DNA from: an uncultured Bacilli bacterium
Lineage (GTDB): Bacteria; Bacillota_I; Bacilli_A; RF39; UBA660
Direction of reading: 5' to 3'
DNA: 33,015 nucleotides
NCBI GenBank assembly: GCA_947624115.1
Contig: CANQIS010000006.1
Location: 1 to 33,015 of the forward strand
The first letter of the stretch is position 1. Every line of letters begins with the position of its first letter. The position numbers and the translations under genes were made by a program. The notes beneath the pieces are model-generated. The model saw nothing but the letters and a program-made list of their open reading frames with translations, was not told the DNA's origin and did not search any database. Shown in pieces: positions 1-26,489 of this stretch.

Positions 1-109
1 TACCTGGTAGCACCTGCCAATAAATATCAGGATTACCGTTATGAGACTCAAGTTCACCTCGAACAAGTGGTCTAGGTCCTATGAAACTCATCTTTCCACC
101 TAATACATT
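1..109 (-). pseudogene. C-terminal part of an initiating sugar transferase (WcaJ/WbaP-like), partial at window edge and apparently interrupted near bp 109
   Basis: Minus-strand translation NVLGGKMSFIGPRPLVRGELESHNGNPDIYWQVLPG matches the NVLxGxMSFIGPRPL...GEL.SHNGN.xIY..V.PG signature. Upstream residues (HQTLKIIRFNEHQPT, preceded by a stop) lack the expected LDELPQ-type motif. Confidence 0.8.
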
Positions 110-115
110 TGTTGG

Positions 116-162
116 TTGGTGTTCATTGAAACGAATAATTTTTAAAGTTTGGTGTTAATTGA
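116..162. repeat. Short imperfect direct repeat TTGGTGTTCATTGA (116-129) / TTGGTGTTAATTGA (149-162)
   Basis: 14 bp, one mismatch, 33 bp apart, at the presumed element end. Confidence 0.45.
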
Positions 163-2671: not shown

Positions 2672-4114
2672 TTACTTATCATCTCTTTCAAAACATATAG
2701 AAATTCTTACTTTATCAACTATTTTTGTAAGATTAACATCATTTACTCTTTCAAATACTAAAAAATATTGCTCACTAATAAAATTCAAAATTTCATAATA
2801 TTCATGTTCAAAAATATTTAATTTGGAATTACCATTGCATAAAAAGAAATCACTATTATTTCTCAATATAAACTTAAAAGAATATGGATCAAATACATTT
2901 TTATCTTTATTACCAACAATTACATATTTAATGATTTTATCAAATAACTGTCCATCAAAACTTTCTATGGATTCAGAATTTTTTAATATTCTATTTACGT
3001 ATAATAGATTATTATCTATTAACTTTTTTTGAATGTTATCATACTCGTTTAACATTAAGTTAAAAGTATTTACGAATGCTACCTCAAGAATGTCATCTCT
3101 TATCATTTTACTTCCACAATACCCATTTTTAGTAGTTTGACAAAATAATTTGTAACTTTTATTATCTTGATGAAATCTACTAAAAGAATTACCACAAAAG
3201 CCACAAAATACTTTTCTAGTAAAAATTGTTTCTTTTTGTAATTGCTTTGTTTGTATTATATTTGTATATTTTTTTAAATGTTTTTCTTGCACTTTATCAA
3301 AAGTATCTCTATCAATAATAGGCTCATGATGATTTTTAAGTAAATAAATATCACCTTTTTCTTCAGTAGCATTTTTTTGGGCTATGAAATTATTTGCTAT
3401 TTTTAATTTTCCAAATAGTATATCACCAACATATTTTTCATTTGTTAAAATTCTTATTATCGAATTATGACCCCATTTAGCTTGATTATTATAATTTAAA
3501 TAGCCATCTTTCTCTAATTTAGTAGCTATTTTTCTAGTAGCCATGCCATCTAGATATAGTTTAAAAATTAATCTAACTACTTTTGCCTGTTCCTCATTAA
3601 TAATATAATTTTTCTTTTCGACATCATAAATATAGCCAAAAAACGAAGTTCCATATGGCAAATATCCATTTAAAGATTTTTCACTTAAAGCATTTACAAT
3701 ATTTTTAGAATAATTTTTTGAAAAATCTTTTATAACATTTAATTGATTAGAAACAGTTTTTTTACGTGTTGAATATTTTTCTTTTACAAAATATATATCT
3801 ACATTATTATCACGTAAGAAAATCAAAAGACTATTTAAATCTAGTTCTTCTATATTTAATGATGAAACACTATCTATAACAAAAAGGTCAATATTTTTAT
3901 TAAAAATGTCATCAATTAATTTAGAAAAATTTTTTCTATTTTTTTCATAATTTTCTTCATTACAACTACTATATATTCCGATTAATTCCCAGTTCTTTTT
4001 TTGCTTTACAAATTTTTTTAGATTAGTTTTAGTTGATAAGTAATTTTCATCATTATACTTATTAGCTCTAAAAAATATCGCTGCTTTCTTTTCTATTCCA
4101 TATATATTACTCAT
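2672..4114 (-). CDS. Large serine recombinase paralog with degenerate catalytic residues
   Basis: AAIFFRANKYND replaces AAYxRVST; DSVSSLNIEE replaces KSISRFARNT; recombinase domain (WGHNSIIRILTNEKYVGDILFGK, KNHHEPIIDRDTFDKVQ) and zinc ribbon (VFCGFCG...C...C) kept. ORF listed to 4162, but ATG at 4114 follows GGAGG and the upstream stop, so it is the likely start. Confidence 0.9.
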   Translation of the reverse strand: MSNIYGIEKKAAIFFRANKYNDENYLSTKTNLKKFVKQKKNWELIGIYSSCNEENYEKNRKNFSKLIDDIFNKNIDLFVIDSVSSLNIEELDLNSLLIFLRDNNVDIYFVKEKYSTRKKTVSNQLNVIKDFSKNYSKNIVNALSEKSLNGYLPYGTSFFGYIYDVEKKNYIINEEQAKVVRLIFKLYLDGMATRKIATKLEKDGYLNYNNQAKWGHNSIIRILTNEKYVGDILFGKLKIANNFIAQKNATEEKGDIYLLKNHHEPIIDRDTFDKVQEKHLKKYTNIIQTKQLQKETIFTRKVFCGFCGNSFSRFHQDNKSYKLFCQTTKNGYCGSKMIRDDILEVAFVNTFNLMLNEYDNIQKKLIDNNLLYVNRILKNSESIESFDGQLFDKIIKYVIVGNKDKNVFDPYSFKFILRNNSDFFLCNGNSKLNIFEHEYYEILNFISEQYFLVFERVNDVNLTKIVDKVRISICFERDDK

Positions 4115-4116
4115 AT

Positions 4117-5652
4117 TTACACTACCTCCAAAGGATTGTATTCTACACTTACTGGTAGACAATCAATAATTACTAAATTTTTCTTATTATTAATTTTTTC
4201 ATAATAATGAAATGGGCTTTTATAAGTAAACTCTAAAATTTTATTATACTTACTGTTGACCACATTTTTTCTATTCGAGCCAGGATCAATAATAAGTTTC
4301 TTTTTCGTGCATAGAATATATCTAATGTTAAAAGGACCGTACTTATCATTTGAATTTTCATTTCCAATAATTATGTATTCAACTAGCTCTGAAAATACAT
4401 TCATATTAAATTCTTCTGTTAATTGATATTGTGATAATATTTTTTTTGTATGATTAAGATTTTGTAAAACATCTTCTTCATCATTTTTATTTAGTCTTAA
4501 TTTTAATTTTTTCATGACAATATAAGAAATTTCTTTTAACAAATCTTCACTTATTTGCTTTGATTTATCACATCTTGATTCGGTTTCGAAACTATGATTA
4601 CATATAATTTTTGACTTTTCTTTATTATTGTTAGAAAAATAATGATCGAAGAAACTGCCACAGTAACCACATATACACTTGCGCCTAAATGAAGACTGAT
4701 TTGACATTTCTGGTATTTTGTTTTTAATACTCAAACATGTATTAGCAGCATATCTTCGTTTTATTTCTTCTTGAGCCTTATTGAAAGTTTCTCTATCAAT
4801 AATAGGCTCATGATGATTTTTAATAAGATACATATCTTCTTGTCCCGTATTTCTAACAAGTTTACGAGAAAATATATTAATAGTTATGTATTTCCCCTGT
4901 AATAAATCACCAGTGTACTTTTCATTCATTAATAAATTTTTTATGTTAGTTATTTTAATGTTAAATTTATCTTTAATAATATTTGTTATTTGATTATAAT
5001 TTTTGCCCTCCAAAAAGAGTCTAAATATTTCTTTAACAACTATACTTTCTTTTTTGTTGACTACTATTTTTTTATTTTTAGCAACATATCTATATCCAAA
5101 ACAAACTGTTGTCCCAACTATTTCGCCTCTTTGTCGTTTCATTTTATATGCAAGTCGAACATGACTAGATAAATTTTCACTTTCTTGTTGAGCCACTGAT
5201 GCTAAAACAGTAATTATAAAATTACCAGTAGCACCAAGTGTGTAAATATTTTCTTCAATGAAGAATACTCCAACATCATTTTCTTTTAATAATCTTAACC
5301 ATTTGAGCAGGTCAACAGTATTTCTACAAAATCTAGAAATTGATTTTACTAAAATGAGGTCCATTTTATCATTAATTGCATCTTCCATCATTCTCATAAA
5401 ATTTCTTCTTTTACTTGTACTTGTTCCACTAATACCCTCATCAGAATATATATCTACAAATTCCCAGTTTCCATTTGAATTAATTAAATTGTAAAAATAT
5501 GAACATTGAGAATCATAGCTATGTTCTTGATCTTCATGTAGTGTACTTACCCTTACATAAGCAGCAACTCTACGTTTTCTTTGTTTTAAATTTGTTAATG
5601 AATTAATATTTACGTCTTCTTGAATTGTTTTTCTTTGAACAAATATATCCAT
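4117..5652 (-). CDS. Large serine recombinase (intact-looking)
   Basis: AAYVRVSTLHEDQ, EGISGTSTSKR, KSISRFCRNT, KNHHEPIIDRETF, zinc ribbon CICGYCG...C...C; AGGAGG upstream. Confidence 0.95.
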   Translation of the reverse strand: MDIFVQRKTIQEDVNINSLTNLKQRKRRVAAYVRVSTLHEDQEHSYDSQCSYFYNLINSNGNWEFVDIYSDEGISGTSTSKRRNFMRMMEDAINDKMDLILVKSISRFCRNTVDLLKWLRLLKENDVGVFFIEENIYTLGATGNFIITVLASVAQQESENLSSHVRLAYKMKRQRGEIVGTTVCFGYRYVAKNKKIVVNKKESIVVKEIFRLFLEGKNYNQITNIIKDKFNIKITNIKNLLMNEKYTGDLLQGKYITINIFSRKLVRNTGQEDMYLIKNHHEPIIDRETFNKAQEEIKRRYAANTCLSIKNKIPEMSNQSSFRRKCICGYCGSFFDHYFSNNNKEKSKIICNHSFETESRCDKSKQISEDLLKEISYIVMKKLKLRLNKNDEEDVLQNLNHTKKILSQYQLTEEFNMNVFSELVEYIIIGNENSNDKYGPFNIRYILCTKKKLIIDPGSNRKNVVNSKYNKILEFTYKSPFHYYEKINNKKNLVIIDCLPVSVEYNPLEVV

Positions 5653-5700: not shown

Positions 5701-5877
5701 TTATCTTTTACTAATGTGCAAATTTTTTATTTGTAGTTTTGCATCGTTATATAATTCTTCTGTAATTAATTCCTCTTTTCTTAAATAATTAAGAGCGTCT
5801 AGTTTTAATAAATATTGTATAAAATCTTTGCGAATTATATATTTATAATTATCATTCAAATAAACATTTGAAATCAT
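5701..5877 (-). CDS. Small protein (58 aa), SHOCT-like helical hairpin
   Basis: Read by hand: MISNVYLNDNYKYIIRKDFIQYLLKLDALNYLRKEELITEELYNDAKLQIKNLHISKR; TAA-ATG junction with the upstream ORF. Confidence 0.6.
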   Translation of the reverse strand: MISNVYLNDNYKYIIRKDFIQYLLKLDALNYLRKEELITEELYNDAKLQIKNLHISKR

Positions 5878-6072
5878 TTATTCATCTCTTTTCTTATATC
5901 TTCTAACAATAAGATCTAATCCTGGAGTAGTGTCCCATAAATTACTATTAGTAATTACTTTTCTTGCTTTTTTAATAGCCTCACTTTTTGTTCTCGCATT
6001 GACTATTATATTTTCACTAAAATCACCGATTATTATAGTTACTAAATAGGATTTTTCTTTTAATCTAAACAT
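5878..6072 (-). CDS. Small hypothetical protein (64 aa)
   Basis: ORF in a coupled series; MFRLKEKSYLVTIIIGDFSENIIVNARTKSEAIKKARK... Confidence 0.65.
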   Translation of the reverse strand: MFRLKEKSYLVTIIIGDFSENIIVNARTKSEAIKKARKVITNSNLWDTTPGLDLIVRRYKKRDE

Positions 6073-6561: not shown

Positions 6562-7038
6562 CTATTTTAAAATTTCTTTTAATTTTTTTAATGCAATATT
6601 CAGAGTATATTGTACTGCTCTAATATCTACATTTTCTTCAGTTGCTATTTGTTGCTGTGTTTTATCTTCGAAATAATATTTTTTTATTCTTCTTTTTTGT
6701 ATTTCAGGTAGTTGTTCAATAGCAAGTTTTAATTCTTCAAAAGTTGCTTTACGTATTATTTCATCTTCAATGCTTGGAATTTTATCTTTAATTCTATTAT
6801 TTAAAGTTTCTTCAAATATTTCAGAATGTTCTATATGTCTGTCGTATTCGTTTAATTCTTTAATATCATCAAGCTCAAATCTATCAAATGATACAAATAT
6901 TTCTTTGCTAACTTCTACATCTTGAATAATTCCCTTATAGTCCTTAAAACTTACTATATAAATATTTTGTGTTTCAATATATTTCAAAGTATATGGATTA
7001 TCTTTTGATTTTCTTCTTTTTGGTCTTTTATTAATCAT
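6562..7038 (-). CDS. Sigma-70-family-like sigma factor (ICE type)
   Basis: C-terminal region-4-like helix-turn-helix: LKLAIEQLPEIQKRRIKKYYFEDKTQQQIATEENVDIRAVQYTLNIALKKLKEIL; AGGAGGAAAG-ATG. Confidence 0.85.
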   Translation of the reverse strand: MINKRPKRRKSKDNPYTLKYIETQNIYIVSFKDYKGIIQDVEVSKEIFVSFDRFELDDIKELNEYDRHIEHSEIFEETLNNRIKDKIPSIEDEIIRKATFEELKLAIEQLPEIQKRRIKKYYFEDKTQQQIATEENVDIRAVQYTLNIALKKLKEILK

Positions 7039-7453: not shown

Positions 7454-7987
7454 TTATGTTACCTCTATGAACTCTATTAATCTAGATAAGCTAATTGGCA
7501 CTCCATCCTTTACAAATCTTTTGATTAAACTTATAACAATAGCTTTTCGTGCTTTTGAATTCCATTTACTTAATTCTTCTTTTATACGATCCATTCCATC
7601 ATGCTTACTAACATAATAATTCTCTAATCTATCTATAAAATGCTCAAAGCTGTTTTTAGGAATTACATCTATCACTCGCTTATCAACACCAATATGCTGC
7701 AATACTGAAATAATATAAGTAGTATCTGTTCCATCAATTTTGAACGATATTTCTTTTAATTTTTCTAAATCCGTAATTTTTCCGAGCTCTTCATCTGAAA
7801 TTAAATCCTCAATATTACAACCAAAAGCTTTACATAAATCAGGAAGCTTTTCCCAAGATGGATAATCATCATTTCGTTCCCATTTAGAAATACTTTGTCT
7901 TGATACTCCAATCATTTCTGCTAGTCGCTCTTGTGAAATTTTTTTAGATTTTCGTAAATTTTGTATATTATTACCAAGTCTGAACAT
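7454..7987 (-). CDS. XRE-family transcriptional regulator
   Basis: N-terminal HTH: IQNLRKSKKISQERLAEMIGVSRQSISKWERNDDYPSWEKLPDLCKAFGCNIEDLI. Confidence 0.9.
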   Translation of the reverse strand: MFRLGNNIQNLRKSKKISQERLAEMIGVSRQSISKWERNDDYPSWEKLPDLCKAFGCNIEDLISDEELGKITDLEKLKEISFKIDGTDTTYIISVLQHIGVDKRVIDVIPKNSFEHFIDRLENYYVSKHDGMDRIKEELSKWNSKARKAIVISLIKRFVKDGVPISLSRLIEFIEVT

Positions 7988-8092
7988 ACTTCCACCTCCT
8001 TTTCAATTTAAATTATATCTGTTAATGCTAATTAAATCTATAAACCTCTAGTTGCTTTTTTCATTACAATAGTATTATTTTACATTTTTCAA

Positions 8093-10163: not shown

Positions 10164-11627
10164 TTAAAATTTTGTATACTTATAAACTTTGTTACTTTCT
10201 AATTCTTTAGAAAATCTATCAACAGCATTTTGCCAAGTAGGAAGTTTTTCAAATCCAAATGTTTCTAATTTAGTTTTATTTAATTTAGAATTTTTAGGTC
10301 GATAAGCAATATTACTCATATCCTTACCAGTATAATATTCTTCTGTTGTTACAGGATTGATATGACAATCTTTATTATTCCTTTGCATAATATATTTTGC
10401 AAATTCTGCCCAAGAGCAATAACCCTCATTTGTTACATTATATGTTCCATATTTTTCTGAAAAAGCCATTTCTACTAAAACTTTAGCTAAATCAATAGTA
10501 TAAGTTGGACTACCTATTTGGTCGGATACAACATTTAATTCATCATGACTATTAGCTAGTTTAAGCATTGTCTTTACAAAGTTATTGCCATTTATTCCAA
10601 ATACCCAAGAAATTCTTGCTACAAAATGTTTAGGATTTCTTCTTACCTCTTCTTCCCCTAAATATTTAGTTTTACCATAAACACTTAAAGGATGAGGAAT
10701 ATCTTCTTCTATATAAGAATCATTCGTATCTTTTTCACCATCAAAAACATAATCTGTGGAAGTATAGATGACTTTTGCACCAATTTTTAATGAGGCATCA
10801 ACAATGTTTTTAGTTCCATTAACATTAATATTTTCACAATAACTTGGATCAACTTCGGCCTTATCTACTGCTGTATAAGCAGCACAATGAAAAATTACAT
10901 CAGGTTTATAAGTAGTAATAATATTCATAACTTGTTCTCTATTAGTAATATCCATCTCTTTACTAGATAAAGCTAATATATCATTTTCACCACGTTCATT
11001 CAATTCTCTAACTATATCATGACCAAGTTGTCCTGTAACTCCTGTTACTAGAAACTTTCTAGGCTTTCTATAAAATGATACGCCACTTTCTTTTAAAGAT
11101 GAACGATTACTATCTTTTGCTGATAATAAAGGACTTTCAATATTATATTCTTTAAAAGTTTCTTGCCATGGAATATTAACTTCTTTATCATCCCAAGCAA
11201 TGCCACCCTCCATTCTTGGTGCATATTTATTATCAACAAAATAATTAAAAACAGCATCATCTGTTAAAGCAACAAAGCCATGAGCAAAGCCTCTTGGAAC
11301 ATAAAGCATTTTTCCATTTTCTTGAGTTAGCTTTACTGATGTATATTTTCCGTATGTAGAAGAATCTTTTCTCATATCAACAACGACATCAAGTACTGCT
11401 CCGTTAGTACAATAAACTACTTTGGCTTGACAGTATGGATCTTTTTGAAAATGAAGACCTCTTACTGTTCCCTTAACACTTTTTGATTCACTTTTTTGAT
11501 AGAATCCTTTAAAACCTAGTTCTTCTAATTCTTCTTTTGTAATAGATGAAAAATATCCTCTATCGTCACCAAACCTTTTTGGCTCTAGTATGTAACAATC
11601 ATTTAAATTAGTTTCTATTTTGTTCAT
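10164..11627 (-). CDS. rmlCD: Fused dTDP-4-dehydrorhamnose 3,5-epimerase / dTDP-4-dehydrorhamnose reductase
   Basis: N-terminal RmlC cupin (FGDDRGYF...VRGLHFQKDP...VVDMRKDSSTYG...VPRGFAHGF), C-terminal RmlD (VTGVTGQLGHDIVREL...YTSTDYVFDG...YGKTKYLGEE). Confidence 0.93.
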   Translation of the reverse strand: MNKIETNLNDCYILEPKRFGDDRGYFSSITKEELEELGFKGFYQKSESKSVKGTVRGLHFQKDPYCQAKVVYCTNGAVLDVVVDMRKDSSTYGKYTSVKLTQENGKMLYVPRGFAHGFVALTDDAVFNYFVDNKYAPRMEGGIAWDDKEVNIPWQETFKEYNIESPLLSAKDSNRSSLKESGVSFYRKPRKFLVTGVTGQLGHDIVRELNERGENDILALSSKEMDITNREQVMNIITTYKPDVIFHCAAYTAVDKAEVDPSYCENINVNGTKNIVDASLKIGAKVIYTSTDYVFDGEKDTNDSYIEEDIPHPLSVYGKTKYLGEEEVRRNPKHFVARISWVFGINGNNFVKTMLKLANSHDELNVVSDQIGSPTYTIDLAKVLVEMAFSEKYGTYNVTNEGYCSWAEFAKYIMQRNNKDCHINPVTTEEYYTGKDMSNIAYRPKNSKLNKTKLETFGFEKLPTWQNAVDRFSKELESNKVYKYTKF

Positions 11628-12537
11628 AAACTTTCCTCTTTTCTTTAACCTTTACTAAATATTTTCCATATTGATTATTGTTAAAAGTTTCTGCCCTTTT
11701 AGAAAGTTCCTCATTAGATAGCCATTCATTTATGTACCCAATATATTCAGGACAGCATATAACTATATCTTTATTATTTTGAATTGTCTTTACCATATTT
11801 GAGGCATCAAGTAAACTTTCAAAAGTTCCTGTATCAAACCAAGTATAACCACTATCTAAAATTGTCGATTTTAATAATTCATTCTTTAAATAAATTTCAT
11901 TTAAGCAAGTGATTTCTAATTCCCCTCTCAAAGATGGCTCTATGCTTTTAGCAATTTTAGAAACACCTTTTGGATAAAAATATAATCCAGTAACTGCATA
12001 ATCACTTTTTGGATTAATAGGTTTTTCTTCAATGCTTAAAACATTGTTATATTCATCTACTTCCATAATTCCAAATCTTTCAGGATCTTTAACTTGATAT
12101 CCAAAAATGGTCGCATAGCCATTAACAGCATTATTTCTAGCTTTAGACAATTCTTTTTCTAATCCACTACCATAAAAAATATTATCACCTAAAATCATTG
12201 CACAAGGACTATTATCTATAAATTCTTCCCCTAAAATAAATGCCTGTGCCAATCCATCAGGACTTGGCTGAACGATATACGATAAATTAATACCAAATTG
12301 ACTTCCATCTTTTAATAATCTTTTAAAATAAGGTTGATCCTGTGGCGTTGTAATAATAAGAATATCACGAATTTCTGCTTGCATTAGAACCGATAACGGA
12401 TAAAAAATCATTGGCTTATCATATACTGGCAACAATTGCTTACTTACACCTTCTGTTATAGGATATAATCTTGATCCAGTTCCTCCTGCTAGTATAATTC
12501 CTTTAATATCACTTTTAGTTTTAGATTTTTCTGCCAT
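11608..12537 (-). CDS. rmlA: Glucose-1-phosphate thymidylyltransferase
   Basis: GIILAGGTGSRLYPITEGVSKQLLPVYDKPMIFYPLSVLM; FGYQVKDPERFGIMEVD; GYTWFDTGTFESLL. Confidence 0.95.
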   Translation of the reverse strand: MAEKSKTKSDIKGIILAGGTGSRLYPITEGVSKQLLPVYDKPMIFYPLSVLMQAEIRDILIITTPQDQPYFKRLLKDGSQFGINLSYIVQPSPDGLAQAFILGEEFIDNSPCAMILGDNIFYGSGLEKELSKARNNAVNGYATIFGYQVKDPERFGIMEVDEYNNVLSIEEKPINPKSDYAVTGLYFYPKGVSKIAKSIEPSLRGELEITCLNEIYLKNELLKSTILDSGYTWFDTGTFESLLDASNMVKTIQNNKDIVICCPEYIGYINEWLSNEELSKRAETFNNNQYGKYLVKVKEKRKVYEQNRN

Positions 12538-12651
12538 AAACTAACCTCTTTTCTTGTTTTCATAATTTTCATAATGAGCATGTTTAATATTGTCGCACGT
12601 ATGGCTTATATAATAACATAATAAATACAAAAACACAACTGCTAATTTTCG

Positions 12652-12680
12652 TTGACAATAGCTAAAGAGTAGTGTAAAAT
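12652..12680 (+). promoter_or_regulatory. Sigma-A-type promoter for the plus-strand acyltransferase
   Basis: TTGACA, 17 bp, TAAAAT, 75 bp upstream of the ATG at 12755. Confidence 0.7.
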
Positions 12681-12754
12681 AATGTCATCCATCAGAATAT
12701 ATAGTAATTGAAACTTCAACTTTGAAATTTTCAAAAAAAGTTAGGTCGTGAATT

Positions 12755-13384
12755 ATGAATAATTTTCTAAAAAAATGTATTAATTATATATATATATATA
12801 TATTTAAAGGAAATAAGATTGTTAAAACGGGAAACAATAATATAATTGATATAAATAAAAAATGCATTAAGATTAAAAATACAAATATAAAAATACAAGG
12901 AAGTAATAACAAAATAATATTTGGCGAAAATTGTAATATTACAGGATTACATATCCTTATTATTGGAAATAATAATAGAATTTTAATTGGAAATAATGTT
13001 ACTATTAATGCGTCAAAATTACAACCAACTATCATTAATGCCATAGGTGGAAAAACAATCAGTATTGGTGATAATTCTCTACTTTCTAATAACATAGAAA
13101 TTCACACATCGGATTATCATGGAATATATAATGAAAATGGGAAAAGAATTAATCCTGATAAAGATATATATATAGGCAAAAAAGTATGGATTTGTCTAGG
13201 ATGCAAGATATTAAAAGGAGCTTATATAGGAGATGGGTGCGTACTTGGTGCTGGATCAATTATATCAAAAAAATTTGATGTCGTTAATTGTATTTTAGCT
13301 GGTAATCCAACTAAAATAATAAAAGAAAAAATTCAATGGCAAAAGGAAAGAAAAGATTCAATTAAAATTTCTAATACAAATTAA
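12755..13384 (+). CDS. Left-handed beta-helix (hexapeptide) O-acyltransferase
   Basis: Hexapeptide repeats and typical C-terminal motif IGKKVWICLGCKILKGAYIGDGCVLGAGSIISKKF...ILAGNPTKIIKEKI. Confidence 0.88.
   Translation: MNNFLKKCINYIYIYIFKGNKIVKTGNNNIIDINKKCIKIKNTNIKIQGSNNKIIFGENCNITGLHILIIGNNNRILIGNNVTINASKLQPTIINAIGGKTISIGDNSLLSNNIEIHTSDYHGIYNENGKRINPDKDIYIGKKVWICLGCKILKGAYIGDGCVLGAGSIISKKFDVVNCILAGNPTKIIKEKIQWQKERKDSIKISNTN
12785..12803 (+). repeat. Intragenic (TA)9 T dinucleotide tract
   Basis: TATATATATATATATATAT encoding YIYIYI near the N-terminus of the acyltransferase. Confidence 0.95.
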
Positions 13385-13432
13385 AATTACAAGTTACTGT
13401 AAATCTAATAGTGCTAACTTGTAATTTTTTTT
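13384..13432. terminator. Bidirectional rho-independent terminator between convergent genes
   Basis: 13-bp perfect stem AAATTACAAGTTA (13384-13396) / TAACTTGTAATTT (13415-13427), then T-run. Confidence 0.85.
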
Positions 13433-14817
13433 CTTAAAAATATCTTTTTTAGATAATCCCAATGTAATATTATAATAAAAACAAATATAGTTACTTGAAT
13501 CAAATAGCAAATATTTAATGTAGCTAGAATTGATTGTAGAATTAGTAAGGCAATAGCCAAAATATGATTTTTCCACTTGACTTTCATTTTTATAAACTCT
13601 TGTAAACTTGTCGTTCTTAAAATCCACATAATACAATAACCAATCATAGTTGCCAAAGCAGCTCCAATAGCCCCAAATAAATATATAAATATAAAATTAC
13701 AAATAGTATTTACAACAGCACCAATTATCGTAGTTTTAGTAACTTCTTTTGTCTTTTTAGTAGCGGCAAACAAAGAACCTTCAAATTGCGATATCCCATT
13801 AAAAATGGTGCCAACTAATAAAAAAGGAACACATTTATATGCACTAAAAAAATCTTTAGAATACAAGAACATAGCAATTGGAACATTAAACAACATTATT
13901 ATAGAACACACAGCAACGGAAAGTAAACTATATATTGTGTAATTATTTCCAATAAAACCATCTTTATCTTTACTATCAAATTCAGCAATCGCAGAAATAG
14001 ACCAAGCATTGTAAAAAATACTTTGAAAAGTAGTTAATATTATCGGTATTTTACAAGAAATTGCATAAACACCATTGACAGCCATACCAGAAATCCATAA
14101 CAAGATATATCTATCACTTGCATTATTTACCCACCAAGAGAGAGAATTTGCTATTAATGGAAAACTATACTTAATCATAGGTTTAGATAAATTATTATAT
14201 TTTCTAATATGAAAATCTTTATATATTTTTCCAATAAAAAATTGATAATTAAACTGAAATAATAGACCTGCTATAATTCCAATCATATATCCATTTATAC
14301 CCATATTAAAAACGACTAAACATAATATATTAGTTAAACATGTTATTAATGTTGATATTATCCCACTTACAACTATAACTTTAGCCTCATTTTTAGCTTT
14401 AAAATATACATTGAAACAATTATTAAAAGCATTAAAGAAAAAGGAAAAAAATAAAAATAACCAATATATTAAACTAAATTTGATAATGCCTGATACACTA
14501 ACAAAAATTATACCAATAATGAAAATGAGTGTACTTTTTAATATAATATTAATTGTTGTAGATAATACATCTTTTTTCTCATATTGATTATCCATACCAA
14601 AACGAAGTGTCGCATCTTGTATACTTAATAATAATATAGGCATTAATAATTGAGCTGTTGATTGTAGTAAGTCAACAGTTCCATAATCTGATGTACTTAA
14701 TATCGATGTATACAATGGAAGTAATAAAAATGATATAATCTTTGATCCAAAACTTCCTAATGTAAATATTCCTATGTTTTTAATTAATGACTTATACTTT
14801 TTTTTCACAAAAAACAC
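13414..14817 (-). CDS. wzx: Polysaccharide flippase (Wzx / MVF-type)
   Basis: Multi-pass protein; NIGIFTLGSFGSKIISFLLLPLYTSILSTSDYGTVDLLQ, SNSLSWWVNNASDRYILLWISG. Confidence 0.9.
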   Translation of the reverse strand: MFFVKKKYKSLIKNIGIFTLGSFGSKIISFLLLPLYTSILSTSDYGTVDLLQSTAQLLMPILLLSIQDATLRFGMDNQYEKKDVLSTTINIILKSTLIFIIGIIFVSVSGIIKFSLIYWLFLFFSFFFNAFNNCFNVYFKAKNEAKVIVVSGIISTLITCLTNILCLVVFNMGINGYMIGIIAGLLFQFNYQFFIGKIYKDFHIRKYNNLSKPMIKYSFPLIANSLSWWVNNASDRYILLWISGMAVNGVYAISCKIPIILTTFQSIFYNAWSISAIAEFDSKDKDGFIGNNYTIYSLLSVAVCSIIMLFNVPIAMFLYSKDFFSAYKCVPFLLVGTIFNGISQFEGSLFAATKKTKEVTKTTIIGAVVNTICNFIFIYLFGAIGAALATMIGYCIMWILRTTSLQEFIKMKVKWKNHILAIALLILQSILATLNICYLIQVTIFVFIIILHWDYLKKIFLRKKITS

Positions 14818-14822
14818 CTCGA

Positions 14823-15671
14823 CTAATATTTCATATCATCATAAGTAATTATACCTGCTCCACCAGTTATATATACCGTGTCACCAACAATCATTTTTCC
14901 CATATTACTTACAAGCATAACTGCAACATTGGCAACTTCTTCGGGTGCTACAAATCTTTTTGTAATTGTATTTTCATTATGCAAATCATTAAAGTCATCT
15001 TGCTTTAACATAGGTGTTGAAGTTGATCCTGGAGCCAGTCCGTTGACAATTATTCCGTATGGCAATAATTTTTTAGCCATACCTAAGGTAAGTGCACGTT
15101 CACCCCATTTAGAAATAATGTATGGAGAAATAGCAGGTCTTAAAGCTGAAGAAGAAGTTATATTTAAGATATTACCCTCAATTTTATTTTCAAGCATATA
15201 CTTTGTTATAACTTGTGACATAAAATACATACCTTTTAAATTTGTATCTAATATTTTATCATATTCTTCTTCAGTAGTATTTGGAAATGATGTCCCACCA
15301 TTTACTCCGGCATTGTTAACAAATATATCTATTTTTTTGTCTATACTTTCGCTTATTGACAAAAAATCTTTTTCCAAGCTACTTACTTTAAAAATATCTA
15401 ATTTAGCTATAATTACTTTACTATCTTCACATCTGCAAGTTGCTATTAATTTTTTCTTGGCTTGTTCTAGTTTTTCATTATTTCTCCCTGTTATAATAAC
15501 TGTTGCACCATTTTTTACAAATGATTCAGCAATAGAATATCCAATACCAGAAGAACCACCTGTAATAAATGCACATCTGCCAGTTAAGTAATTACCTTCT
15601 AATGTAGGTATTAAAATTTTTTCTTTTTTTACCCTTACCATTTTCTTTAATAACCTTTTAATCTTAGCCAT
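14823..15671 (-). CDS. Short-chain dehydrogenase/reductase
   Basis: TGGSSGIGYSIAESFVKNGATVIITGR, NNAGVNG, YIISKWG, LAPGSTSTPM. Confidence 0.9.
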   Translation of the reverse strand: MAKIKRLLKKMVRVKKEKILIPTLEGNYLTGRCAFITGGSSGIGYSIAESFVKNGATVIITGRNNEKLEQAKKKLIATCRCEDSKVIIAKLDIFKVSSLEKDFLSISESIDKKIDIFVNNAGVNGGTSFPNTTEEEYDKILDTNLKGMYFMSQVITKYMLENKIEGNILNITSSSALRPAISPYIISKWGERALTLGMAKKLLPYGIIVNGLAPGSTSTPMLKQDDFNDLHNENTITKRFVAPEEVANVAVMLVSNMGKMIVGDTVYITGGAGIITYDDMKY

Positions 15672-15690
15672 ACATTTAACCTCTTTTACT

Positions 15691-17403
15691 TTACCTATTT
15701 TTTAGTTTATTAATTGTTTTCTCTCCTATTATTTTCTTTATTGAATTTTTTAATTCCTTTTTTAAATATCCATTATTTTTTAAATTTTTATTAATTAATA
15801 ATTGATATGCTTTACTTTCATCAATATCACTAACAAAAGTTTCTAAAATAATTGGCTTATCGGATTTATTTAAAAATGTTTTGCTAGCATTCATAAATTC
15901 ATTCATATTATTCGCACTTAAATATATAAAGCCACAGGTTTCTGCCCATCCTTTAGCATTTTTAAAATGATTTGCAGCTGCAATATAATCATCTATTTCT
16001 TTTTTATCTTCGCCATGAAGTTTAAATTCGATTCCACCATTATTATTGATTAGTAAAATACGTAGATTATTTTTGATATGTCTTATTCCTAGTGAATTTA
16101 AATCATAGAAAAAAGCTAAATCACCAATTACCATAAATGATAATTCATTTGATATAACACTTTGTCCAATCAAAGTTGACATACCACCATCTATCCCAAA
16201 AGCACCAACATTTGAAAAACATTGAATCGTAGGATTTAAATAAAACAAATTCCAAATTCTTAGACTATTTAATATAGAAAATTGTATTATAGAGTTCATA
16301 GGAATTTTGTCATGTAAATATTGTGCTATACTTACGTTAGAAAATGGAACACTAATATCATTTTTCAATGAAGAGGTTTCTTTTGACCATAATTCAAAAT
16401 AATCATGATTAACATTATTTTCTTCAACACGTAAAAAGAAATTCTCAACTCTACCTTTAAAAACTTTTGTTAACTTATCATATGTATCTACAACTTTTCC
16501 ATCAACAGAAACTATCCAGTGTTCTACTTCTGCAAGAGAAGTTTTTGATAATTTATTATATAATGGATAATCACCAGTTTGTCCACCGATAGTAATAAAA
16601 ATATCAGGCTTAAGTCTATCAAATTCATCATCTGTAATAATAGATAATAATAAATTACCATTAACTGAATAATTATTAGAAAAATTAGAAAGATGATTAA
16701 CATAAACAACTGAATTAGTATTATTACAAAAATAATTTATTGCATTTTTCTCTTTCTCATTAAAAGGAAGATGTTCACCAATAACAATTAGTATTTTTTT
16801 GCTAGACAAATCTATTTTTTGCATATCTTCTATTGAAATTCTAATTATAGATTTATTTTTAGGCTCAACATTGTCTATCTTAAAATCTAACCATGGAACA
16901 CATAATTGTACTGGCCCTAATCCATCATTAGATAACTCTAAAATCGCGTCATTTATTACTCTTCTACTATGATAAATATCATTGATATCACTTATAAATG
17001 GCAATTCAAATGATTTTTTTACACTATCATTAGGAAGTGATGTTTGATCTGGAGCTTGCATATATCCTTGATATTTAAATCTAGGGTGCTTTTCCATAGT
17101 TATTGCTAAAAGTGGCACTCCTTTATAATATGCTTCAGTTAAACCTGGTATATAATTTCGTGTGGCTTGAGCACTGGTACATACCATTGCAACAGGTCTA
17201 CCAGTTTGTAAATAAATTCCTATTGCAAAATAAACAGCACTTCTTTCATCAACAATTGAATAACATTTAAAATACTCATCATTTTGAAGTAATTTTACTA
17301 ACTGTACGTTTGTACCACCTGGATTGATAACAATAGTATCTATTTTATGTATTTTTAATAATTCTACTATCATTTGAACATTTTTAATATTATTTATATT
17401 CAT
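15691..17403 (-). CDS. ThDP-dependent enzyme, MenD/acetolactate-synthase-like
   Basis: VDERSAVYFAIGIYLQTGRPVAMVCTSAQATRNYIPGLTEAYYKGVPLLAIT; NVGAFGIDGGMSTLIGQS; VIGDLAFFYDLNSLGI...INNNGG. Confidence 0.85.
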   Translation of the reverse strand: MNINNIKNVQMIVELLKIHKIDTIVINPGGTNVQLVKLLQNDEYFKCYSIVDERSAVYFAIGIYLQTGRPVAMVCTSAQATRNYIPGLTEAYYKGVPLLAITMEKHPRFKYQGYMQAPDQTSLPNDSVKKSFELPFISDINDIYHSRRVINDAILELSNDGLGPVQLCVPWLDFKIDNVEPKNKSIIRISIEDMQKIDLSSKKILIVIGEHLPFNEKEKNAINYFCNNTNSVVYVNHLSNFSNNYSVNGNLLLSIITDDEFDRLKPDIFITIGGQTGDYPLYNKLSKTSLAEVEHWIVSVDGKVVDTYDKLTKVFKGRVENFFLRVEENNVNHDYFELWSKETSSLKNDISVPFSNVSIAQYLHDKIPMNSIIQFSILNSLRIWNLFYLNPTIQCFSNVGAFGIDGGMSTLIGQSVISNELSFMVIGDLAFFYDLNSLGIRHIKNNLRILLINNNGGIEFKLHGEDKKEIDDYIAAANHFKNAKGWAETCGFIYLSANNMNEFMNASKTFLNKSDKPIILETFVSDIDESKAYQLLINKNLKNNGYLKKELKNSIKKIIGEKTINKLKNR

Positions 17404-17411
17404 AAATCATA

Positions 17412-18563
17412 TCACCTATTTTCTATAACTTTTTCTAAACTTATTATAAAACTTTTCTTTTTATCCTCTATCAATTTTTGAGATTTCTTTTGTGTTTCTA
17501 AAAGTTCTTTCCTATTTTCAATATATTGTAATGTTTTATTAAAAGCCGACTCACTATCTTCAGTTTTTCCATTGATAACATATTCATACTCTAAACTATT
17601 GAAAAGACCTTCAAATTTTCTACTATAAGAAACTGGTATAGTCAAAACTCCAGCAGAAAATGCTGCAATAGTTGAATGCATTCTAGATCCAATAAATATA
17701 TCCATATTAGAAATATAACTTTTAGCATCAATAGGGTTTGTAAAAACTGGAGCTAAAATACAATTTTCAATTTTCTTTGCTAACTTTTCACATATAGCAT
17801 AATCATCATCATGGGCATTTTCTGATAAGTCTATTACATGAGGAATTAAATAGACTTGATAATCAGGATTATTAGAAAAATATTTTATAACTTTTTCTAT
17901 ATAATTTTTATAATCTATGGTTAAATCAAACTGATTCAAAGAATTAAAGCCACCTTTATATAATAAACCTGATACATTAATTCCTACTTTTATTTTTTTA
18001 GATTCTATATTGTATTTTGAGCTGTCATAAGGAAGAAAAAATGCCATATCTGTAACTAATTCTGTATTATTTATTTTAAAGTCCTTTTCAACTATATCTA
18101 GTGACATTTTATCTCTACAATAAATTTTCTTTGCCTTTTTCAAAATTTTGATAGCAATTTTTCTTGAGTCATCTTCAAAAGGACCATACGTTTGAGGCAA
18201 TAGAATATAATTTTTACATAAAAATTCTGCTAACAATTTATTTTTAGCTAATCTCTTAAAATACTCTTTTGAATATATATCTGAGAAACTGTCACCCATA
18301 GTTGCGTCCAAAATAATATCGCAATCATGTAGGGCTCTTATATATGTTAGTCTTAAATCCTTTATTTTAGTTTTAACATTTATAAACTTAAAATTTGGGA
18401 ATCTTTCTTTAATGCTACCTAATCTAGTATTGCTAAAATTATATATTGTAGTATTCTCTTTTAAAGGTGAATAATCATTAAGAATAGAAATTATAGAATA
18501 AGTTAATGCCTCACAGCCCTTGTTTGGTGAAACAAATTCACATCCCATTAGACCTATTTTCAT
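17412..18563 (-). CDS. Polysaccharide pyruvyl transferase family protein
   Basis: NKGCEALTYSII, LLPQTYGPFEDDSRKIAIKILKKAKKIYCRDKMSLDIV, FIGSRMHSTIAAFSAGVLTIPVSYSRKFEGLF. Confidence 0.85.
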   Translation of the reverse strand: MKIGLMGCEFVSPNKGCEALTYSIISILNDYSPLKENTTIYNFSNTRLGSIKERFPNFKFINVKTKIKDLRLTYIRALHDCDIILDATMGDSFSDIYSKEYFKRLAKNKLLAEFLCKNYILLPQTYGPFEDDSRKIAIKILKKAKKIYCRDKMSLDIVEKDFKINNTELVTDMAFFLPYDSSKYNIESKKIKVGINVSGLLYKGGFNSLNQFDLTIDYKNYIEKVIKYFSNNPDYQVYLIPHVIDLSENAHDDDYAICEKLAKKIENCILAPVFTNPIDAKSYISNMDIFIGSRMHSTIAAFSAGVLTIPVSYSRKFEGLFNSLEYEYVINGKTEDSESAFNKTLQYIENRKELLETQKKSQKLIEDKKKSFIISLEKVIENR

Positions 18564-19620
18564 TTTCTTTCCACTCCTTAATCCATTCTAAATATTTATA
18601 ACCGTTTTGTTCCGTTGGCTCAAGCATCATACCCTCTGCCCATTCATTCCATGCATTAATAAAAACAAACTCATCGTTTTTTATTAAATTCATATATTTA
18701 ACAAAATTATCTTTTTTAACAGGGGTTATTATATAACCTCTATATGAATGTCTAGGTGTATTATCCCACTCAAAAAACAAACCTCTTATAACATTATTAT
18801 TAGATTCATAATTCTTGCACATCAATTTTAAAAGTTTATCACCATTATATATAATAATATTTTTTATATTAAAAGTGTGTGAAAGAGCTTTTAGTTTATT
18901 TATAGTTCTTTTTGGTATAGATAATAAAGTATGTTTATATTGGTCTAGTATATAGGTCGGTTCTCTTAAATGTATTAATCTACTATAATCAATATCATTA
19001 TTTATAAGGTTTTTCCAATTAGAAGTTTGATATGTTTCTATTATACAAATTCCATTAAATCCATTTTCTTTACACTTCTTATCAAAAAAACTAAACATTT
19101 CTTTTTTTTCTGCAAATTTGGAATTAAAAATTAATAATAATGGCATATTATTTCTTTTTTGATACCTAGAATCTTTAAAAAATGGTAGTAAGTAATTAAA
19201 ATGTTCTTCCCATTCTTTCTCTTTTCCATATTTTTGTTCTAATAAAAGTTCTTTAGAGCCTTCCCAAGAACGAAACCAACTATGATTTGCCCAACAAAAG
19301 AAAAATTCAATATCTATATCTTTGTTACTTAATAACATTTCAGCAGGTTTTTCTAATATTTTTTTACCAGTAAAATAGTAATGATAAAAAATAAGCCCAT
19401 CAACTTTGTATTTTTTTAATAAATTTTCTTGCCATTTTAAAGTATCAACATTATCCAAAGAATAATAATTGTTATTCAATGGAATTTTAGGTTGAATATG
19501 TTTTTTAAATAGTGGCTTTGCTTTTTTTACATTCACCCATTCTGTAAATCCTTTTCCCCACCATTCATCATTTTCTGGTATACAATGAAATTGTGGCAAA
19601 TAATATGCAAATATTTTCAT
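18538..19620 (-). CDS. WbsX-like glycosyltransferase / GH99-like protein
   Basis: YYLPQFHCIPENDEWWGKGFTEWVNVKKAKPLFKKHIQPKIP, FFFCWANHSWFRSWEG, INAWNEWAEGMMLEP. Confidence 0.92.
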   Translation of the reverse strand: MKIFAYYLPQFHCIPENDEWWGKGFTEWVNVKKAKPLFKKHIQPKIPLNNNYYSLDNVDTLKWQENLLKKYKVDGLIFYHYYFTGKKILEKPAEMLLSNKDIDIEFFFCWANHSWFRSWEGSKELLLEQKYGKEKEWEEHFNYLLPFFKDSRYQKRNNMPLLLIFNSKFAEKKEMFSFFDKKCKENGFNGICIIETYQTSNWKNLINNDIDYSRLIHLREPTYILDQYKHTLLSIPKRTINKLKALSHTFNIKNIIIYNGDKLLKLMCKNYESNNNVIRGLFFEWDNTPRHSYRGYIITPVKKDNFVKYMNLIKNDEFVFINAWNEWAEGMMLEPTEQNGYKYLEWIKEWKENENRSNGM

Positions 19621-19645
19621 TTGTTCTTACTCCTTTCAAATTTAC

Positions 19646-20761
19646 TTAATAATTTAATATACTCATATAAGGAACAGTAGCATCTGCGCCCAAATAAACA
19701 TAATACAAATACCAAAAGGCAAGCATAAAAACTATAACTAACGAGTTGACAATTATACGTGATGATGTACCTTTAAAACATTTAGATATTTGTGAAATAA
19801 CAAATATATTAAAATAGCCAAAATAATATGATAATCTTTGTGTATAAGGTACAAAAAAGGCTAAATGGTATAATAGAAATTCAATCCAAATAAAATATAT
19901 AAAATCGGTACAATTAGTATTTTTTTTCAACAATTTATATAATAAAACAGTTATAAGAAATATCATTGCTTTGAAAACGTAATCAATTAATATTACATTT
20001 CCAGTGCTATCAGAAGAGGCATAAAATGTATATCTAGAATCTATAATTCCATTGCTAGTAAGAAAAGATATTATTTGATTATAGTAGCACATAAATAGAA
20101 ATATAATTAAAAATGTTAACATGGAAATAACTATTTTTATAGTAGAGCTAATTTTAGAATTTGAAAGCATTATAATCAAAATTATTGGTATTCCAATAAT
20201 AACTGAATTATGGAACGATAATGCTAAAAGGAACAATAACAAAACCTTTACATATGATTTATCCTTTATATATTTATAGCTATATAAAACTATTGCTATG
20301 GAAATACTTTGACGTACCATATTTAATGATCTATTATAATAAAGTAGCAAAAATGCTAAATATGATAACCATAAAGGACATTTATATTCCTTCTCTGCAT
20401 AAGAACAAGCTTTAAAAACAAAAAATTGAATTATTAATTGTAATAAAAAATATAATATATTAATATTAGTTGTATATCTAGAAACTATATAATTTATAAA
20501 TGCATATCCAATTTCAACTGCCGTACGTGAATGCAAAAGAGAAAAATTATTTGAGACTAAAGCCGCAGAAAATACTCTTTTCACATAAAAGATAGTATCA
20601 GTGCCAATTCCCTCTGCACGTAATCCAGCTAAAATACTAGGAATAATTACTGTTAAAATGGCAAAAAGTATTTTTGGAAATTTTTTCTGTGATTTAGAGT
20701 ATAGAAATGCAAATATTGTACTTATAAAAAATATAAATAGATAAATCATCATAAATATCAA
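19646..20761 (-). CDS. EpsG-family (Wzy-like) polysaccharide polymerase
   Basis: Multi-pass; ILAGLRAEGIGTDTIFYVKRVF, NRSLNMVRQSISIAIVLYSYKYIKDKSYVKVLLLFLLALSFHNSVII. Confidence 0.85.
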   Translation of the reverse strand: MIFMMIYLFIFFISTIFAFLYSKSQKKFPKILFAILTVIIPSILAGLRAEGIGTDTIFYVKRVFSAALVSNNFSLLHSRTAVEIGYAFINYIVSRYTTNINILYFLLQLIIQFFVFKACSYAEKEYKCPLWLSYLAFLLLYYNRSLNMVRQSISIAIVLYSYKYIKDKSYVKVLLLFLLALSFHNSVIIGIPIILIIMLSNSKISSTIKIVISMLTFLIIFLFMCYYNQIISFLTSNGIIDSRYTFYASSDSTGNVILIDYVFKAMIFLITVLLYKLLKKNTNCTDFIYFIWIEFLLYHLAFFVPYTQRLSYYFGYFNIFVISQISKCFKGTSSRIIVNSLVIVFMLAFWYLYYVYLGADATVPYMSILNY

Positions 20762-21754
20762 CTACTTTCTTAATAATATATACAACTTCACTACACTATA
20801 ATACAAGTGCAACTTATTATCAATTAACAATTTAATTAAAAATAAATTTTTCTTTTTTTCATTTGTTTTACAAATTTTTACGTCTTTTAATTTTTTAATT
20901 TCTTCCATCTCATATAGATTTTCAACTATATGTTTAAATTCTCTAAATGAAACATTAGTTGTCTTAATTAAATACTTTAATTTCATATTTAATCTTGAAA
21001 ACACAGCACTTTTTACTTTTGATATACTTACATTATATTTCGCAAATGTTGAAAATACTTTTATGTTATCTTCACACTCTCTTATTCTGCTATTCAAGTT
21101 ACCACTTTTAGTAGCGCTATTTACATTAACATAATAGTTATACCCACAAGTATTAATATATCCCATTTTACCATGATTTTTATAGCACTTCCTAATAAAT
21201 ACTAAATCCTCGGCAAATTTTAAATTAATATCAAAGCGAGTATTTCCAACTGCATTTCTTCTTATAAAAAGTCCACCACCATAACAAAAAAAAGGTGATT
21301 CAATAAATAAAGAAAAATTATTATCATCTATAATTACTGAATTATTAGAATAAATATTAGTTTCAATTATTTCTTCATTCTCATTAACTATTTTATATCC
21401 ACTTCTAACTATATTTAAATTGTTTTTTTCTGCAAAATTATATAATAATTCAATATAGTTATTATCTAAATAATCATCATGATCTAAAAATAATATATAT
21501 TTTCCCTCTGCTTTAGAAATTCCCATATTTCTAGCACTACTAACGCCCCCATTAGCTTTATAGTAGTAACTGATATTCTTATACTTTTCTTTCAACTTTT
21601 TGCAAACAAATTCAGTATTATCCAAGGATCCATCATTTATTAATATAATTTGAAAATCATCAAATGATAATGTTTGATTCTTTATAGATTCAACACATCT
21701 TTCGATATATTTTGCTCCATTATATATAGGGATAATTATTGAAATCTTAATCAT
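20762..21754 (-). CDS. GT2 family glycosyltransferase
   Basis: ISIIIPIYNGAKYIERCVESIKNQTL...NDGSLDNTE...NGGVSSARNMGI...FLDHDD. Confidence 0.93.
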   Translation of the reverse strand: MIKISIIIPIYNGAKYIERCVESIKNQTLSFDDFQIILINDGSLDNTEFVCKKLKEKYKNISYYYKANGGVSSARNMGISKAEGKYILFLDHDDYLDNNYIELLYNFAEKNNLNIVRSGYKIVNENEEIIETNIYSNNSVIIDDNNFSLFIESPFFCYGGGLFIRRNAVGNTRFDINLKFAEDLVFIRKCYKNHGKMGYINTCGYNYYVNVNSATKSGNLNSRIRECEDNIKVFSTFAKYNVSISKVKSAVFSRLNMKLKYLIKTTNVSFREFKHIVENLYEMEEIKKLKDVKICKTNEKKKNLFLIKLLIDNKLHLYYSVVKLYILLRK

Positions 21755-22643
21755 AATTTCCCAAACTTTCCAATTCTTTTATAAGAATTTTTGCTGAATT
21801 ATAAGCATTCTTATATATGAATAAATTTTTTTCTCTTTTATTTCTTTTAACTGAATTTGTCGCAGAATCTTCATTATGAAATACTTCTAATCTTGGATTA
21901 TAAACTGATTTTAAGTTATATTTTTTTAATCTAACAGCTAATACTTTTTCTTCTAAATACATATATGTTCTAGAATCTAAACCATCAAATTTATCTATAT
22001 ATACCTTTGAGAAAATTAAAAATGCTCCATGCAAAACAATATTTTCTTGTCTTATATTTACATTTTGTTCGCTATATAGATTACTCTTTTTAGTTGGATT
22101 TAATTTTAAATACCATTTTTTAATTAAATCATATAGAAATTGGATATATAACAAATTACATATATACATAGCAATATATCTTTTCTTTCTAGCCTTTATT
22201 TCTTTTAATGTAATTAAATTTTGTTGAATTGGAGTAATTTTATTATTTGGAAGTAAGATTTTTGGACCTAAAACTGCAAATTTACTTTTTTCGTATTCTT
22301 TCTCAACCACTTTTAAAAAGTCATTATGTAAAAGATATGTATCATTATTTATCATAGCAATAAAATCAACATTATAATTTTCTTTAATATATCTAAATCC
22401 TAAATTATTTCCATTTGCAAAACCTAGATTTTTTTCACTAAATATCAATTTAACATTAACTTTATCTTTATAAATTTTTTTCAATTTTTCACCAGAATTA
22501 TTAGGCGAACAATTATCAACTATTACTATAATATAATCATCTTTTGCTACGTTTTTTTCTATGGAAGTAACACATTTTTTTGTATCATCAATTGTGTTAT
22601 AATGTAAAATCAAAAAAGCTATTTTCTTTGTAATTTTTTTCAT
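21747..22643 (-). CDS. GT2 family glycosyltransferase
   Basis: AFLILHYNTIDDTKKC...IVDNCSPNNSG...SEKNLGFANGNNLG...INNDT. Confidence 0.9.
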   Translation of the reverse strand: MKKITKKIAFLILHYNTIDDTKKCVTSIEKNVAKDDYIIVIVDNCSPNNSGEKLKKIYKDKVNVKLIFSEKNLGFANGNNLGFRYIKENYNVDFIAMINNDTYLLHNDFLKVVEKEYEKSKFAVLGPKILLPNNKITPIQQNLITLKEIKARKKRYIAMYICNLLYIQFLYDLIKKWYLKLNPTKKSNLYSEQNVNIRQENIVLHGAFLIFSKVYIDKFDGLDSRTYMYLEEKVLAVRLKKYNLKSVYNPRLEVFHNEDSATNSVKRNKREKNLFIYKNAYNSAKILIKELESLGNYD

Positions 22644-25525: not shown

Positions 25526-25651
25526 ATTTTACAACTCCTAATTCTTATTTTTTCTGCATTCTTTTCAGCTTTTATCGTTAGATAATACCATTAATAATAA
25601 ACACTATTTTATATAACCATGCATAATTACATAAAATAATATAACAATACT

Positions 25652-26326: not shown

Positions 26327-26489
26327 AATAAGCAACCCCCTTAGAGCTATTTCTTACACAATAAGCCCACCTACACGTGATACCTATTTTCAAGTAAATA
26401 TTAGCCATATTATAATACACCTCTCTGATTATTTTATTAAATTTGTATTTACTAATTTTAATGTATTTTTTGCAAACTTTCTCAACCAT
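26319..26489 (-). CDS. Possible small leader ORF (56 aa) translationally coupled to the sugar transferase
   Basis: MVEKVCKKYIKISKYKFNKIIREVYYNMANIYLKIGITCRWAYCVRNSSKGVAYYG; GAGGGG upstream; stop overlaps downstream start (ATGGATAA). Confidence 0.4.
   Translation of the reverse strand: MVEKVCKKYIKISKYKFNKIIREVYYNMANIYLKIGITCRWAYCVRNSSKGVAYYG

Follow-up and report, generated by a model that had tools for sequence, protein, structure and literature searches.

Probable integrase-side region of a conjugative element

We analysed a stretch of 33,015 nucleotides (hereafter the window) that makes up one whole contig of a 1.57-Mb draft genome (127 contigs) of an uncultured, gut-type Bacilli bacterium. 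The window begins with the 3′ part of a sugar-transferase gene (...NVLGGKMSFIGPRPLVRGELESHNGNPDIYWQVLPG; positions 1–125, minus strand) that is cut by a mobile element. The left edge of the element, the only one in the contig, lies at ~110–135, and the rest of the draft genome did not yield the 5′ part of the interrupted gene. At the far end, positions 32740–33015 (minus strand) encode the C-terminal portion of a VirB4-like ATPase for conjugal transfer (NCBIfam NF045971, CD1110 family; 142 bits). The adjoining 539-amino-acid (aa) protein (31118–32737, minus strand) has no Pfam or NCBIfam match and resembles, by eye, a cell-wall hydrolase of a conjugation module. The element also carries a surface-polysaccharide locus (10164–26335, minus strand with one ORF on the opposite strand) that encodes an RmlC–RmlD fusion (dTDP-4-dehydrorhamnose epimerase/reductase; 10164–11627, minus strand), RmlA, a flippase, a pyruvyl transferase, WbsX, EpsG, GT2 glycosyltransferases and an initiating sugar transferase. 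A 419-aa protein in this locus (22597–23856, minus strand) gave a weak match to a protein kinase domain (PF00069, E = 1e-9). Given the VirB4-like end, the sugar-transferase remnant and the polysaccharide locus between them, the contig most likely covers the integrase-side portion of an ICE that carries surface-glycan genes and is inserted in a glycan gene.

Four ORFs of the large serine recombinase (LSR) type, A–B–C–D, lie head to tail in the same orientation (minus strand) with their ends touching or overlapping. ORF A (4117–5652) encodes a 511-aa LSR that has an intact catalytic signature and no coiled-coil. ORF B (2672–4114, 480 aa), the second of the four, runs without internal stops from an ATG at 4114 to a stop codon at 2672; its start is touched by the end of A, and its good ribosome-binding site (TTTGGAGGTAGTGTAAATATG) overlaps that end. 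Touching or overlapping start and stop codons thus tie B to both A and C. ORF C (2100–2669) encodes a 189-aa protein that consists of a Resolvase domain only, the Recombinase and zinc domains being absent, and ORF D (326–2110) encodes a complete 594-aa LSR with a coiled-coil and an intact catalytic signature, the probable main integrase of the element. Consistent with these assignments, A, B and D matched the Pfam Resolvase, Recombinase and zinc-ribbon models and C matched Resolvase alone. Just downstream of D are two inverted repeats (178–208 and 229–287, with arms 89% and 95% complementary), which are a possible att site or terminator; no crossover was tied to them.

Domains and predicted fold of ORF B

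ORF B comprises a resolvase domain with a dead active site (residues ~8–150), a Recombinase domain (~156–290) and a Cys4 zinc ribbon. The Resolvase match was 27.6 bits (E = 3.4e-6; residues 45–157 of a longer, TTG-start ORF). An earlier note, made from the letters of the sequence, had described B as a catalytically dead yet full-length LSR in which the DNA-binding Recombinase domain and the zinc ribbon remain. The latter are indeed present: PF07508 matched with 84 bits (E = 8e-24), PF13408 (Zn_ribbon_recom) matched with 33 bits, and all four zinc cysteines (C304, C307, C325 and C333) are kept and are invariant with 46 others. The description as full-length applies to the uninterrupted 480-aa ORF but not to the domain set, as the coiled-coil segment of the zinc domain is absent from both B and A in an alignment in which D has it. 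Nor was a coiled-coil seen in the secondary structure of the AlphaFold2 model of B.

The AlphaFold2 model (mean pLDDT 77) shows a resolvase fold, a Recombinase domain and a zinc domain, with inter-domain packing and relative domain placement that are unreliable (pTM 0.44). In Foldseek searches, the best matches of B were serine integrases and gamma-delta resolvase, and the modelled N-terminal domain lay on the resolvase fold (target-normalized TM-scores of 0.71 for 2rsl and 0.67–0.71 for 3g13); the earlier note had proposed such a structure prediction as a check. Judged by its sequence and model, B is best called a homologue of LSRs, or pseudo-recombinase, rather than an LSR enzyme: the Recombinase domain, zinc ribbon and fold are present, and the catalytic residues and coiled-coil are missing.

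Loss of the active site

We extracted eight catalytic columns (R8, S10, D36, R45, S67, R68, R71 and E124; numbering after gamma-delta resolvase) from 209 distinct LSR ORFs, each 380 aa or longer, of related genomes. Nearly all of them, including A, D and the four LSRs of a related array (L113, see below), carry the signature RSDRSRRE, as do all three LSRs of a second array (L112) apart from one conservative D36E change. The signature of B is RNSRSSIY (R8, N10, S36, R45, S67, S68, I71 and Y124), that is, S10 is replaced by N, D36 by S, R68 by S and R71 by I, and E124 is lost. In the alignment, the nucleophile motif Y(A/V/C)RVST of active LSRs corresponds to FFRANKY in B, the arginine motif SISRFARNTLD corresponds to SVSSLNIEELD, and a four-residue deletion at the start of helix E has removed the conserved AQQE. 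B alone among the 209 LSRs has S10, R68 and R71 all replaced; the remaining deviants have truncated N-termini or a single change at R8. The earlier statement that the serine and the aligned arginines are all missing therefore stands for S10, R68 and R71, whereas B keeps two catalytic arginines, R8 (its R16) and R45 (its R60). A motif census based on regular expressions had flagged 51 of 159 proteins and was too strict; the column-based extraction was used instead.

With the catalytic residues replaced, B should be incapable of strand cleavage, as far as the alignment can tell. With R68, R71, D36 and E124 also gone and the model in the resolvase fold, no alternative alignment returns a serine together with its arginines, an outcome that would have overturned the claim of catalytic loss. 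It is very improbable that B is still active through an alternative nucleophile or that B and C together form one split enzyme. C, which carries the signature RSDNSLRK, keeps S10 and R71, and B keeps R45 and the DNA-binding half, so the two might seem to share the work, with B binding DNA and C cutting. However, B has lost D36, R71 and S10, C has lost R45, and R68 and E124 are gone from both, so that B and C cannot complement each other; we rejected the split enzyme on these grounds. In addition, the resolvase fold is complete in B and offers no vacant place for C. Even less credible is a frame error or chimera in the assembly. Although the genome is a draft of 127 contigs and the window is a whole contig, the array comprises four in-frame, stop-free ORFs whose ends touch or overlap, the codon-position composition is coherent (GC 31.6/21.8/11.9%) and the substitutions are scattered over many separate sites.

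Selection on the remainder of the protein

Since no close homologue of B turned up in the collections searched and dS would be saturated against A or the L113 LSRs, we used relative-rate and simulation tests instead of dN/dS. In every pair of active LSRs from the three arrays (window, L112 and L113), identity is higher in the catalytic domain (48–84%) than in the DNA-binding half (24–50%). B shows the reverse pattern, with only 20–26% in the catalytic domain and 26–38% in the Recombinase and zinc domains (RD–ZD), as high as between active pairs. On a fixed tree, the catalytic-domain branch of B is 6.1 substitutions per site long (saturated; bootstrap 2.6–10) and its RD–ZD branch 0.99 (bootstrap 0.67–1.49), and those of active LSRs span 0–1.0 and 0.2–1.2, respectively. 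The ratio of catalytic to RD–ZD branch length is thus 6.2 for B (bootstrap 2.3–11.4) and at most 1.5 for the 25 other tips. Free trees gave similar branches for B (5.15 and 0.96). In the RD–ZD tree, A and B are sisters (ultrafast bootstrap 95), A being the closest relative of B in this half.

We then simulated neutral decay from an active paralogue up to the divergence observed in the catalytic domain. The simulated genes acquired 23–33 stops per 480 codons, with at least 11 in every run and never zero, compared with none in B, and their RD–ZD identity fell to 0.15–0.17, compared with the 0.34–0.35 observed. The catalytic domain of B has also kept 36 of 46 hydrophobic core positions (18 expected from shuffling; none of 20,000 shuffles reached 36) but only 13 of 47 conserved polar positions; in RD–ZD, 41 of 43 core positions are kept. 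Taken together, the domain rates, the absence of stops and the kept hydrophobic core reject pure neutral decay of the whole gene and, within the limits of sequence and model, indicate a folded, DNA-binding, non-catalytic protein. B thus appears to be catalytically dead yet selectively retained, as the earlier note had proposed: the DNA-binding half is constrained as in active paralogues, and the catalytic domain has kept its core and lost its active site.

The same test is less informative for C. Simulated neutral decay of C yielded five to seven stops, against none found, but an active LSR of the related array (LSR3 of L113, 49%) is nearly as diverged as C (about 42%), and a stop-free C is therefore not a decisive test of neutrality.

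Related arrays

A profile scan of GTDB contigs recovered the two related arrays: L112, with three LSRs, from a Clostridia metagenome-assembled genome (MAG; RGIG6622), and L113, from a Bacilli MAG (RGIG8845) of the same taxonomic family as the window genome. L113 contains four full-length LSRs, all catalytically intact, and has the gene order of the window (a sigma-like gene, two small ORFs of ~60 and 58 aa, and LSR1–LSR4). Its LSR1 and LSR2 lack the coiled-coil and its LSR4 is orthologous to D (53%, full length); across both related arrays, D shares 50–53% full-length identity with the last LSR. The sigma-70 region-4-like regulator of the window (158 aa; 6562–7038, minus strand) is 54% identical over 154 aa to the gene upstream of the L113 array. 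Similar proteins of ~158 aa also occur upstream of D-type LSRs elsewhere, whether these are single or arrayed (also L116, L093 and L171). The two small ORFs of the window are one of 58 aa directly upstream of A (5701–5877, minus strand), whose position and sequence are both conserved in L113/L240 (37% over 46 aa), and one of 64 aa (5878–6072, minus strand), which has no Pfam match and is the positional counterpart of a 60-aa ORF in L240 (small-ORF coordinates there, 7727–7909 and 7899–8075). Considering their conserved position before the LSR array, both are candidate directionality, regulatory or accessory factors.

Polysaccharide genes adjoin all three multi-LSR arrays (window, 10164–26335; L240, 1–5334; L239, 590–4982 and 17064–18972). 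When the polysaccharide proteins of the window were used as queries (SDR excluded), L112 and L113 were the sole matches, with ~160 other LSR loci inspected and flank lengths differing between loci. These elements possibly belong to a group of ICEs that transfer cassettes of capsule or glycan genes. Downstream of the last L112 LSR, at ~4985–5120 of L239 (minus strand), the sequence looks, by eye, like the final part of a gene for an NDP-sugar epimerase (its 3′ end), suggesting that this array is inserted in another glycan gene.

Set against the four intact LSRs of L113, the inactive B and the stub C are, from the sequences, most simply derived states of a four-LSR module. The intact L113 LSRs also imply that a non-catalytic subunit is no general requirement of the module, which counts against B as a partner. 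Searches of IMG/VR, GTDB genome contigs, phage and plasmid collections and ~1,000 genomes from the same genus, family, order and phylum yielded no close homologue of B. The lack of a second catalytically dead copy or orthologue in any collection searched is a further point against B as a partner, and the dead form need not be ancient.

The earlier note did not include the four tandem LSR-type ORFs, the degenerate C or the absence of the coiled-coil from both A and B. Because C is degenerate too, erosion of a redundant array is a live explanation and the main rival to a retained, non-catalytic B. Four active LSRs would be ancestral, only D (and A) would still be needed and B would be on its way out; C would have lost its DNA-binding half, and the DNA-binding half and ORF of B would survive through shortness of time or translational coupling. 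This fits the truncated and active-site-mutated neighbour C, the differing number of LSRs between arrays (three in L112, four in L113), the lack of any dead-B orthologue in the collections searched and the case of the gin element, in which excision depends on a single one of the three serine recombinases (GirC, with GirX) (PMC5595907). However, the divergence of the catalytic domain is too large for a recent loss, its neutral equivalent being ~30 stops and an RD–ZD identity of 0.17; the catalytic-domain core and the RD–ZD rate have been maintained in B; and translational coupling would not keep RD–ZD residues or zinc cysteines. We therefore consider a relic in an eroding array unlikely, while giving it more weight than any other rival.

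Proposed role of ORF B

The reading that we favour, with a probability of roughly 0.58, is that B is a natural pseudo-recombinase, a paralogue of A that has been kept as a folded, DNA-binding and probably oligomer-forming subunit of a four-LSR ICE module. In such a module, A, B, C and D would be co-translated, and D (complete and with a coiled-coil), perhaps together with A, would cut and rejoin the att sites. B would use its Recombinase domain and zinc ribbon to sit on att half-sites or accessory sites, pair with A and/or D through its resolvase-fold domain, and act as an architectural or regulatory partner that controls direction or dosage without cutting. The analysis itself supports the lost active site, the predicted fold, the constrained DNA-binding half and the four-LSR synteny with a second genome; that B does bind DNA, teams up with A or D and has a regulatory or architectural influence is our inference. 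The earlier note had named site recognition, synapsis architecture or directionality control as candidate roles, among which the sequence does not choose.

Two recurrent arrangements make a non-catalytic partner plausible. One is a module in which a protein of ~140 aa with a Recombinase domain only (RD-only) lies between two LSRs, found in Streptococcus, Gardnerella and Ruminococcus phages and on Desulfosporosinus and Ca. Brocadia contigs. The other is the coiled-coil-less upstream LSR: all 12 short-tailed (coiled-coil-less) LSRs that were scored as arrayed occupy the upstream position, and short-tailed LSRs show an enrichment for arrays (Fisher p = 0.003), although truncated ORFs account for several of the other short tails. 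Loci of the first kind, with a middle protein that lacks a catalytic domain, are L040, L041, L044, L056, L058, L142 and L178. LSRs genuinely without a coiled-coil occur at L045, L204–L211 (L208 and L209 near-identical), L112 and L113 and as A and B of the window; most of them are paired, in a tandem array, with a downstream LSR that bears the coiled-coil.

Some of the same features would also suit a repressor that occupies sites, in which B on att or promoter DNA represses expression or recombination, as a dominant-negative protein or autoregulator, and takes no part in recombination. The DNA-binding half and fold are kept without catalysis, the coiled-coil is absent, and many phage and ICE modules place an RD-only non-catalytic protein between a pair of active LSRs. 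Such a role is nevertheless rather improbable, somewhat more so than a relic: no operator or target site was identified, the element already contains both a helix–turn–helix and a sigma-like regulator, and a repressor has no obvious need to keep the core of the resolvase domain.

A narrower form of the partner reading, which we hold only tentatively and well below the general one, is that B is a dedicated pseudo-integrase that acts in mixed complexes with A and/or D and sets the site choice or direction of a multi-LSR machine specialized for integrating conjugative polysaccharide cassettes into glycan loci.

The usual view of serine integrases is of homo-oligomers that need no partner and take their direction from a small, unrelated factor. 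ICEs with three or four LSRs in tandem have been described since at least 2016, and we found no explanation in open-access papers for the keeping of so many. A dead active site combined with a selected fold and DNA-binding half is evidence that a member of an array can be kept for a purpose other than cutting, and makes the reason for LSR arrays testable in a small four-gene module. If the proposed role is true, B would be a natural case of mixed active and inactive subunits in a serine integrase system and would offer genome engineering a naturally occurring model for LSR subunits that influence the choice of site or the direction without cutting. Our search of open-access papers found no published LSR pseudoenzyme or catalytically inactive LSR partner. 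We conclude that B is real and probably functional as a non-catalytic partner, and represents a new variation on the known multi-LSR module.

Comparison with known systems

Canonical serine integrases (Listeria LI/A118, Bxb1 and phiC31; PDB 4kis, 9iu2 and 9rah) share the domain order of B and were among its Foldseek matches, but B lacks the nucleophile, R68, R71, D36, E124 and the coiled-coil. In ordinary serine integrases, the coiled-coil mediates synapsis of attP with attB and inhibits that of attL with attR (PMC3783163). The staphylococcal CcrA/CcrB recombinases resemble the array in being paired serine recombinases of one operon. B, A and D remained far below threshold with the NCBIfam models of CcrA, CcrB and CcrC (best 72–121 bits, compared with cut-offs of 700–900), and an assignment of B to CcrA, CcrB or CcrC was rejected (72 bits, compared with an equivalog cut-off of 900 for the best model).

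The gin element of Bacillus cereus, compared here by description only, likewise has several serine recombinases (GirA, GirB and GirC) in one element inserted in a gene, of which excision needs one (GirC, with GirX) (PMC5595907). It differs in that two of its recombinases are in one operon and one lies apart, and the description used here mentions no catalytic loss for GirA, GirB or GirC (PMC5595907). The modules with an RD-only protein, exemplified by Streptococcus phage Javan105, Gardnerella phage vB_Gva_AB1 and Ruminococcus phage NatCom_38182, share with the window a non-catalytic Recombinase-domain protein among active tandem LSRs. Unlike these short proteins, which have no catalytic domain, B keeps a folded, dead resolvase domain and a zinc ribbon. 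The L113 module of RGIG8845 matches the window in gene order, in the missing coiled-coil of its first two LSRs, in its last LSR (the D orthologue) and in the polysaccharide genes upstream, but its four LSRs are all full-length and catalytically intact.

The nearest described system is the serine integrase triplet of streptococcal ICEs (Ambroset et al. 2016, PMC4701971). As in the window, several co-oriented tandem serine integrase genes lie at one end of an ICE, are attributed to successive duplication and accompany a disrupted target gene (PMC4701971). With A–B–C–D, the window has the at least three co-oriented tandem genes of a triplet, and the VirB4-like C-terminus at the far end of the contig represents a conjugation module in the same element. 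All 42 streptococcal serine integrases, single and triplet, have a Resolvase domain with the conserved serine (PMC4701971), whereas B has an asparagine at this position, and the window differs further in having four ORFs, of which one has a dead Resolvase domain and one is a domain stub. The streptococcal triplets are inserted in a gene with direct repeats of 2–8 bp; the element of the window, whose other end and any such repeats lie outside the assembly, is marked by the 3′ remnant of its target, a sugar-transferase gene.
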